Assembly: GCA_944990035.1 (NCBI GenBank)
Contig: CALYLX010000039.1
Coordinates: forward strand, 53,235-117,234
DNA: 64,000 nucleotides
Origin: Clitopilus passeckerianus
Lineage: Eukaryota; Basidiomycota; Agaricomycetes; Agaricales; Entolomataceae
Reading direction: 5' to 3'
Part shown: positions 47,152-48,980 of the stretch, in pieces
How the letters are laid out: each line of letters opens with the position of its first letter
Numbering within the stretch: the stretch's first letter is position 1
Made by a program: the position numbers and the translations under genes
The notes under the pieces: model-generated
The model's input: only the letters and a program-made list of their open reading frames with translations
The model's database searches: none
Told to the model about the DNA's origin: nothing

Positions 47152-48980
47152 TCAACGATTCAACGTCCATCCCACCTGCAGGCCATGGATGCCCTCAATC
47201 TCCTCCTTGATCGTCTCTTGCACGAGTTTATGCTGCTGCACGATCGACTTGCCAGCAAACTCTTTTGACGAGATCAGGATTCCGTAAAACGTTCCACAGC
47301 CGCCTAGCAGGAACACGGTCAGTCCATGTCGCGGGAGTCAAGAACGCGAACGAAAGCAAAGAAACTCAGAAGGTATCGTAATGTCTCCATGCTGCAGCTA
47401 GTGCACGCGTTTCAGAAGAACAGAAATACTTGTGTTTATCACAGTGGGAACAAGAACCGAAAGTAGTTGCTTACCTATAGTGGACGAAGCACCAAAGAAA
47501 GGAAGAGAATAGTCAGCAAAGGTTGTCAAAAGAAGAGTAGAACTATTTGGAAAGAATAGACGAAACGAGTGCAAGCGAATCAGAAAAACAAATGTGATAT
47601 TCATGGTCTCCGTCCCCCACTCCCATCCACACGCTCCAAGTAATGATGATAGAAACGGGAGCCCATAGGGGAACCAAAACCAGCAGCTCACCTATTCATC
47701 CAAGTCGTCAACCACCATGGGGAGAAAGATAATCCAGTCAGCAAACGTCATCCAAGCACGAACCAATACCAGAAGAAATTCAGTAGGAACAATTGGAATG
47801 GATATTTGCTTGATTTCATGACCCGTCGTGCGGGCCTCATGTTAACGAGTATAGTCATCACTCGATGCGGGGTGTGGACGGAAGCCTTACCTGTAAGGAG
47901 AGGGGGTTAGTACGGTCTCGAGAGGATGCAATATGTAGGAGATTCAGAATAAAGGTTTTTCACGGCTGATCTGCAAGGGATTCGCTCAAATGTATGCGAT
48001 ATCGTCCATCACACGTCCCTCCTCAGCCAGAACGACAGTCTCAGAGCAGTAGAGAACTAGGAAGGAGTGAAGTACAGAAAGAAAGTATGCTTACCTATTC
48101 AACCGGGTAGACAAGAACAAGGCGCAAAGAAAAAAGAAATTGTCAGCGTCATTCCAGTTACCAAAAGACGTAGAGAGGAGAAAGGAACGGAGGAGTCAGT
48201 AGGAACAATTGGATAAGAGATTTTGTATTTCACGAGTGGACATTTCGTCCCACTTCATATAATACATGCGTTTGTTGGAGTTCATCGTTCAACGTGTCGA
48301 GTTGGATTTGTTTGAAGGACGTTGAGGGATTGAAATGTCGCTTACCTAGAGGAATGAAGGTCAGTTAAGATGTACGAGCATGAAGGAGAAGGAGGGAAGA
48401 GAAGAAGGGCATATAATATCAGTGAGATTCTGACGTGATAATTATTGCAATCAGCCACGGGTAGTTATCCCATGTCATCCATCTCGAGTGGAATGAGAGT
48501 TTGTTCATCATTATATGCCTTCTTCCCTCCCCAAGTAACCCACGAATGGGCGAAGTGAAGACACCGAAACCAACCTGATACATCTTGAACCTTCAACTGC
48601 CCAGGAGCGAACCTCTCCGTCAATTTCTTATAAATCGTCTCCTCCCCTTCCGTGAGGTTCACCTCCAACGGATCAGGGTGTGTCTTCCCCTCGCTCCTCC
48701 GGCTCGAGGTGCTGAACGTTCGTTTAGTCCATACCGACTGGCTCTTCCTTGCATTGCTGCTTGTTAGCCTCCGTGTGGCCGTTGACGACGATGTTGACGT
48801 CGATGGCAAGCCAAATTCAACCGTCGACGTAGCTACCCATACGGTTCTCGATGTCCCCGATGATATTCCAAGTCCAGACGCAGACGAGCCAGAGTAGTAC
48901 CGTGCGATGGCGGCGCGGCGACACTGCTGGGTGAAAGGCAGATGCCTGAAGAGGCTGGTGGATGTGCTGGAGAAAGGCAT
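47152..48980 (-). CDS. BolA-family protein, probably mitochondrial (Bol3-like)
   Basis: BolA proteins act with monothiol glutaredoxins or Nfu1 in delivery of Fe-S clusters. Exon 1 (48980-48575) encodes a long Ser/Thr/Arg-rich leader of about 100 residues (MPFSSTSTSLFRHLPFTQQC), suiting a mitochondrial presequence, then the start of the BolA fold: EGEETIYKKLTERFAPGQLK, VQDVSG. Exon 2 (47303-47152) continues GCGTFYGILISSKEFAGKSI, VQQHKLVQETIKEEIEGIHG and LQ, and ends WTLNR. The codon split across the intron gives the invariant VSGGCG, so the exon join is firm. The Cys and the HKLV histidine expected as cluster ligands are present. The single 1,271-nt intron is about 20 times the usual length here and is described separately. 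Confidence 0.88.
47304..48574 (-). other. Long intron made of six end-to-end intron-like units (recursive splice sites)
   Basis: The intron of the BolA gene contains five places where a 3' splice site touches a 5' splice site, read on the minus strand: CTCTAG|GTAAGC at 48346/48345, GAATAG|GTAAGC at 48095/48094, TTACAG|GTAAGG at 47891/47890, GAATAG|GTGAGC at 47692/47691 and CTATAG|GTAAGC at 47476/47475. They cut it into units of 229, 251, 204, 199, 216 and 172 nt. Every unit has a branch-point match upstream of its end: CTGAC at 48364-48360, 48146-48142, 47517-47513 and 47322-47318, TACTAAC at 47912-47906 and TGCTGAC at 47743-47737, most with a pyrimidine tract. A 17-nt block (CAGTAGGAACAATTGGA) is repeated at 47781 and 48197. 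Confidence 0.7.

Follow-up and report, generated by a model that had tools for sequence, protein, structure and literature searches.

Introns lying in juxtaposition without intervening exons, with canonical signals in each, have been described in fungal snoRNA clusters (PMC3596301), and the available text of that study gives 61 cases of exon loss, all in groups of Ascomycota. Cluster III (snR41-snR70-snR51) is arranged there as intron-intron-intron in all of the Euascomycetes covered, the cluster hosts are described as having little coding potential, and the Basidiomycota snoRNAs of these clusters are listed as all intronic. Forty-two EST products fitted removal in the 5'-to-3' direction and RT-PCR in two yeasts agreed (PMC3596301). 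In the accessible portion of a second study, recursive splicing with an exon size of zero was reported in cluster II, with the nested pathway predominant by RNA-seq, and recursive splicing is cited for cluster III of Debaryomyces (PMC5033589). On the available text of both reports, juxtaposed snoRNA introns with stepwise splicing, including those of the snR41 cluster, are already known in Ascomycota (PMC3596301, PMC5033589).

A comparable chain was identified in a BolA gene within the window, the whole 64,000-nt stretch of the Clitopilus passeckerianus genome that was analysed (Table 1). With a probability of about two in three, the long intron of this gene hosts several box C/D snoRNAs polycistronically, as six complete introns end to end with one snoRNA to each. 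The features read in the sequence that bear on this are the internal junctions and branch motifs, both of which a second haplotype retains, snoRNA candidates in five of the six units, an snR41-type guide in units 2 and 4 and homology among some units. A literature search in which subscription papers were thinly covered turned up neither a basidiomycete example of such a chain, nor one in a BolA gene, nor one with six units. The novelty apparently lies in the basidiomycete, the protein-coding host, the presence of six units rather than three and growth of the chain partly by duplication.

Table 1. Positions within the window of the BolA exons, introns, intron units and candidate snoRNAs
Feature	Position	Strand	Details
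BolA exon 1	48575..48980	-	406 nt, ATG to GTATCAG; PF01722 found in joined protein
BolA compound intron, six head-to-tail units	47304..48574	-	1271 nt; junction and branch motif scan plus exon join
Unit 1	48346..48574	-	229 nt; donor GTTGGT; branch motif AACTGAC (A 48361); acceptor CCTCTAG
Unit 1 candidate box C/D snoRNA	48419..48511	-	box C ATGATGA, box D CTGA
Unit 2	48095..48345	-	251 nt; donor GTAAGC; branch motif CGCTGAC (A 48143); acceptor TGAATAG
Unit 2 candidate box C/D snoRNA	48196..48288	-	snR41-type guide TCCAATTGTTCCT then CTGA; 3' end uncertain
Unit 3	47891..48094	-	204 nt; donor GTAAGC; branch motif TACTAAC (A 47907); acceptor CTTACAG
Unit 3 candidate box C/D snoRNA	47944..48012	-	box C GTGATGG, box D CTGA
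Unit 4	47692..47890	-	199 nt; donor GTAAGG; branch motif TGCTGAC (A 47738); acceptor TGAATAG
Unit 4 candidate box C/D snoRNA	47780..47861	-	18S guide of unit 2; both ends uncertain
Unit 5	47475..47691	-	217 nt; donor GTGAGC; branch motif TGCTGAC (A 47513); acceptor ACTATAG
Unit 6	47304..47474	-	171 nt; donor GTAAGC; branch motif GACTGAC (A 47319), GACTAAC in other haplotype; acceptor CTGCTAG
Unit 6 candidate box C/D snoRNA	47366..47442	-	box C GTGATAA, box D CTGA as scan picked in other haplotype
BolA exon 2	47176..47303	-	read from sequence
BolA second intron	between exons 2 and 3	-	51 nt
BolA exon 3 to stop codon	47104..47124	-	read from sequence

The initial annotation had held that the exon join rebuilds the BolA sequence VSGGCG, and this proved correct. 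The joined protein matched PF01722 (E 2.6e-11), VQDVSGGCG was restored across the join of exons 1 and 2, and VSGGCG was invariant in 11 of 11 aligned proteins, consisting of the BolA query and ten chosen from 104 matches. The ten homologues belong to what we take, from their source names, to be mushroom-forming fungi.

The sense strand of the 1271-nt intron contained YAGGTRAG five times and its antisense strand not at all, and the whole window held ten occurrences on both strands, five of them outside the BolA intron. Among 5000 dinucleotide shuffles of the intron the motif averaged 0.017 occurrences and never exceeded one. The junction chain is therefore confirmed as a real feature, and the five AG|GTRAG junctions proposed in the initial annotation stood, with first donor bases at 48345, 48094, 47890 and 47691 as first given and at 47474 for the fifth, which had been placed one base off at 47475. 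The proposed spacing of about 170-250 nt and the branch motif claimed for every unit also held, as the units measured 171-251 nt and CTRAC was present in all six with its A located 15-48 nt before the unit end. In neither haplotype does the first donor, GTTGGT, conform to the GTRAG pattern of the internal ones.

A search of the 64.8-Mb assembly for AGGTRAG-N185..215-YAGGTRAG returned at least 39 matches and the reversed-pattern control at least 83, both counts being lower bounds. Junction pairs as such are background because the pattern matched fewer times than its control, and the spacing of the BolA junctions alone is not unique in the genome. The two BolA alleles accounted for 5 of the 39 matches, no other two of the 39 shared a junction, and BolA was the sole chain of three or more junctions at this spacing among the at least 39 matches. 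CTRAY was located 12-60 nt before the second AG in five of five BolA units versus one of 25 other pairs, a check covering the 30 of the 39 matches that became loci. Chains of YAGGTRAG do occur elsewhere, with five copies within about 200 nt at locus L035 and four within about 730 nt at L043 and L044, which are copies of one sequence, and these look-alikes lacked CTRAY in the one unit tested. The view that the BolA junctions are chance strings in a long intron is hardly credible given the five observed against 0.017 expected and the branch-motif comparison, and plain chance was rejected on these two results together with the retention of junctions and branch motifs in the second haplotype described below. 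By eye, the L043/L044 sequence looks like the antisense strand of a retroelement, and it is a chance look-alike of a junction chain.

A homologous copy of the BolA intron was found on a second contig (C127), with 84% identity over intron positions 1-1257. Two sampled 1.5-kb pieces of this contig were colinear with window positions 32327-61335, spanning 29 kb, at 93 and 96% identity. The simplest account of the copy is that it is the homologous locus of a dikaryon or diploid, and the assembly would seem to include both of two strongly diverged haplotypes. In the other haplotype none of the five junctions was lost and each unit still had a branch motif. Sequence and second copy together give good support to the original proposal of six end-to-end introns with zero-length exons between them. 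Four of the YAG|GTRAG junctions were identical and one had changed from GTAAG to GTGAG, the branch motifs of units 1-5 were identical and that of unit 6 had changed from CTGAC to CTAAC, and differences affected 15% of the intron positions that belong to neither splice motifs nor snoRNA cores.

With the alignment gap falling within junction 3, two of 65 junction and branch sites (the junctions and the branch motifs of units 1-5) were changed versus 116 of 777 other non-core sites (p 0.0028). In the same alignment the junctions alone gave p 0.054, and 9% of random placements of five 8-mers in the non-core intron had as few changes. The gap was placed by hand outside the motif because the donor there is GTAAG in both haplotypes, after which one of the 65 sites was changed (A to G, still GTRAG) versus 117 of 777 (Fisher p 4.5e-4). 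At local rates, taken within 100 nt of each junction between the two haplotypes of this one genome and with sites assumed independent, the probability of keeping all fixed junction sites was 0.002, and 8.6e-5 when the branch sites were included.

These values bear on the possibility that the 1271 nt leave as a single intron, the snoRNAs being released from one lariat or by endonucleases and the junctions persisting as unused relics of duplication. Units 2 and 4 and units 4 and 5 look like duplicates and duplication would copy the junctions, and endonuclease cutting is described as freeing one snoRNA of a mixed fission yeast precursor in the available text of PMC12508059. Unused junctions should however change like their surroundings, contrary to the local-rate probabilities, and units 1 and 3, which are not clear duplicates of others, carry the same signals. 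A one-step intron offers no reason for the retention of junctions and branch motifs together, and we consider such removal decidedly unlikely.

A second possibility is that only the first donor is used and is joined to any of the six acceptors, so that the internal GTRAG sequences are not donors and the snoRNAs are trimmed from larger lariats. This option is named in PMC3596301, whose ESTs and RT-PCR, in the text available, leave room for it, and the exon 1 donor is the sole donor adjoining a coding exon. Against it, GTTGGT fits the usual donor consensus less well than the internal donors do, those donors remain GTRAG in both haplotypes with a single A-to-G change that is within consensus, and alternative acceptors alone would need no internal donors. 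We therefore regard it as unlikely.

Stepwise, or recursive, removal of the BolA units is likely. Removal of any one unit would re-form an AG|GT junction, which would allow the units to leave in succession until exons 1 and 2 are joined, with debranching and trimming of every lariat to its snoRNA. The candidate snoRNAs would guide methylation, the predicted target of the snR41-type guide being an 18S adenosine in GGAACAATTGGA. We infer that the spliceosome uses the internal sites in stepwise fashion and that snoRNAs are made and guide methylation. A more tentative proposal, which we hold to be plausible, is that the BolA mRNA is complete only after six successive splicings through five zero-length exons, each snoRNA having its own intron, and that the chain grows when entire introns are duplicated in tandem and is not readily shortened, for which reason unit 5 would keep its splice sites even in the haplotype where it lacks an snoRNA. 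Unit 5 had the most changes between haplotypes (34 of 205 aligned sites and eight indel events) and its splice signals were kept.

The units look like hosts of box C/D snoRNAs, a content that the initial annotation did not mention. Candidates were identified in five of the six units in this haplotype and in all six in the other, and the C/D scan was above most shuffles for units 1-4 and 6 in both haplotypes (p <1/300 to 0.013 per unit). No snoRNA match in the BolA intron was above an Rfam cut-off and no gathering-mode match was returned for the whole window. The unit 1 candidate featured a perfect box C, a box D, a terminal stem with 8 base pairs here and 7 in the other copy, and a core identical between haplotypes, and the boxes of units 3 and 6 were weaker than those of unit 1. 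Unit 6 had a weak likeness to snoZ159 and Afu_294. Unit 5 yielded no candidate in this haplotype and one in the other, where the scan was above all 300 shuffles and a weak snoR117 match was found. Across the chosen snoRNA core stretches, 17 of 420 sites were changed between haplotypes versus 116 of 777 elsewhere.

Units 2 and 4 both carry CCAATTGTTCCTACTGA, a 17-nt block which is an snR41-type guide plus a CTGA box. The guide of unit 2 (TCCAATTGTTCCT) pairs with 18S AGGAACAATTGGA, and the pairing of the snR41-type guides extends over 13-14 nt. The corresponding site in yeast is the snR41 target A541. All four genome matches to the guide-plus-CTGA pattern were in the BolA alleles. The snR41-type guides had per-box p values of 0.007-0.037 in a guide scoring of 27 CTGA/ATGA boxes per scan, where nothing stands out after that many tests. 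The snR41 family (RF01218) matched unit 4 at 47828-47743, reading the guide-adjacent CTGA as an inner box, at 19.8 bits here and 20.6 in the other haplotype, below the cut-off of 50. A single pattern for the snR70 guide had five genome matches, all of them outside BolA and lacking a C box in the 140 nt upstream, a search that a diverged snR70 could escape, and snR51 was absent from the Rfam scan matches of the BolA intron and of the other haplotype.

The scan chose the branch-motif CTGA as its best box D for units 2 and 4, whichever the haplotype, and for unit 6 of this haplotype. In unit 2 this CTGA is a later one than that after the guide. The snoRNA ends are therefore unsure in these cases. 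The CTGA after the unit 2 guide may be box D or an inner D'. Box C of unit 2 (48282-48288) is ACGATGA here, with one mismatch, versus GTGATGA in the other haplotype, with none, and one haplotype copy of this snoRNA may be impaired. The stretch 48137-48166, which runs from after the 18S guide through the branch motif, was unchanged between haplotypes. From this, the unit 2 snoRNA may extend to a box D overlapping the branch motif. With hand-chosen CTGA boxes, the distance from box D to the branch A was 36-57 nt (mean 46, sd 8), close to the spacing of about 50 nt that is called optimal in vertebrates in the available text of PMC8162545. The spacing was dropped as main evidence, as Rfam reads the unit 4 CTGA as inner and the scan prefers the later CTGA in units 2 and 4.

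A search against the rDNA copies established no rRNA targets for units 1, 3 and 6, because these copies differ by about 7-14% from the reference copy. The divergence of the rDNA copies in the assembly (L010-L019, L023) exceeds what functional rDNA would be expected to show and could reflect assembly error or decay.

Duplication of whole introns, copying the zero-length junction, would account for part of the chain. In both haplotypes the alignment of units 2 and 4 ran up to the acceptor, scoring 41 and 53 where the highest of 300 shuffles reached 27 and 28. For units 4 and 5 a similar alignment was strong in the other haplotype (score 47 against 35 for the best shuffle) and weak in this one (28, p 0.010), and units 2 and 5 were weakly alike (p 0.030 here and 0.37 in the other haplotype). 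High scores involving unit 6 were those of units 2 and 6 here and of units 5 and 6 in the other haplotype, and units 1 and 3 showed at most weak likeness to the remaining units. The shuffles were of single letters, and shared pyrimidine tracts may raise all of these scores. The suggestion that the chain grew by duplication is thus upheld in both haplotypes for the pair 2 and 4 and, mainly on the evidence of the other haplotype, for the pair 4 and 5, but its original sign, the 17-nt block, was rejected as a mere trace of duplication, since units 2 and 4 have the block in common because it is the snoRNA guide and CTGA box. Signs of intron duplication set the BolA chain apart from the ascomycete clusters, for which exon loss is proposed in the text available (PMC3596301).

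The likeness to the Euascomycete cluster III described in the accessible text of PMC3596301 extends to an snR41-type snoRNA, a zero exon between introns and signals in each. Introns in juxtaposition have no exon between them, as at the five zero-length junctions in both haplotypes, and each has a donor, branch point and acceptor, as do the BolA units with a first donor, GTTGGT, that is off consensus. The snR41 18S guide beside CTGA that marks cluster III was found in units 2 and 4, with a family score below cut-off. Cluster III differs in having three introns where BolA has six and in having snR70 alongside snR41 where one guide pattern recognised none in the BolA intron. Hosts of juxtaposed snoRNA introns are described in that text as non-coding, which is not definitional, and the BolA host, with its PF01722 match, does not fit. 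Clusters II and III of Candida and Debaryomyces similarly share an exon size of zero between snoRNA introns, in one pathway, and unlike BolA they are given as non-coding polycistrons of two or three introns in the available text (PMC5033589). Stwintrons, as presented in the accessible text of PMC6616335 and PMC8469720, are likewise compound spliceosomal introns, but there an inner intron interrupts a splice element of the outer one whereas the BolA units lie intact and side by side. The distinction from stwintrons drawn in the first description of the chain was accordingly sound, each unit having its own intact splice elements.

Recursive or ratchet sites are known from the very long introns of flies and vertebrates, where an AG|GT juxtaposition re-forms the donor. 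The comparison made earlier with such sites holds for the AG|GT juxtaposition shared with the BolA junctions but not for intron length, those introns being much longer than 1271 nt, and with a snoRNA candidate in most units the closer precedent is that of the fungal snoRNA introns.

With five junctions in 1.3 kb, a readable coding product and a possible snoRNA in most units, the BolA chain offers a compact natural test of recursive splicing. If the reading is true, zero-length exons would serve a one-snoRNA-per-intron arrangement in a coding gene too, and outside Ascomycota. Zero-length exons as a habit of the species were rejected, as another snoRNA host in the genome seems by eye to have exons that are short but not zero in length. 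At the loci concerned (L024, L025, L026) an snR61-like snoRNA lies on one strand and snR55-like and SNORD27-like snoRNAs, those of the host in question, on the other, the matches in the Rfam scan of L024/L026 all being below cut-offs.
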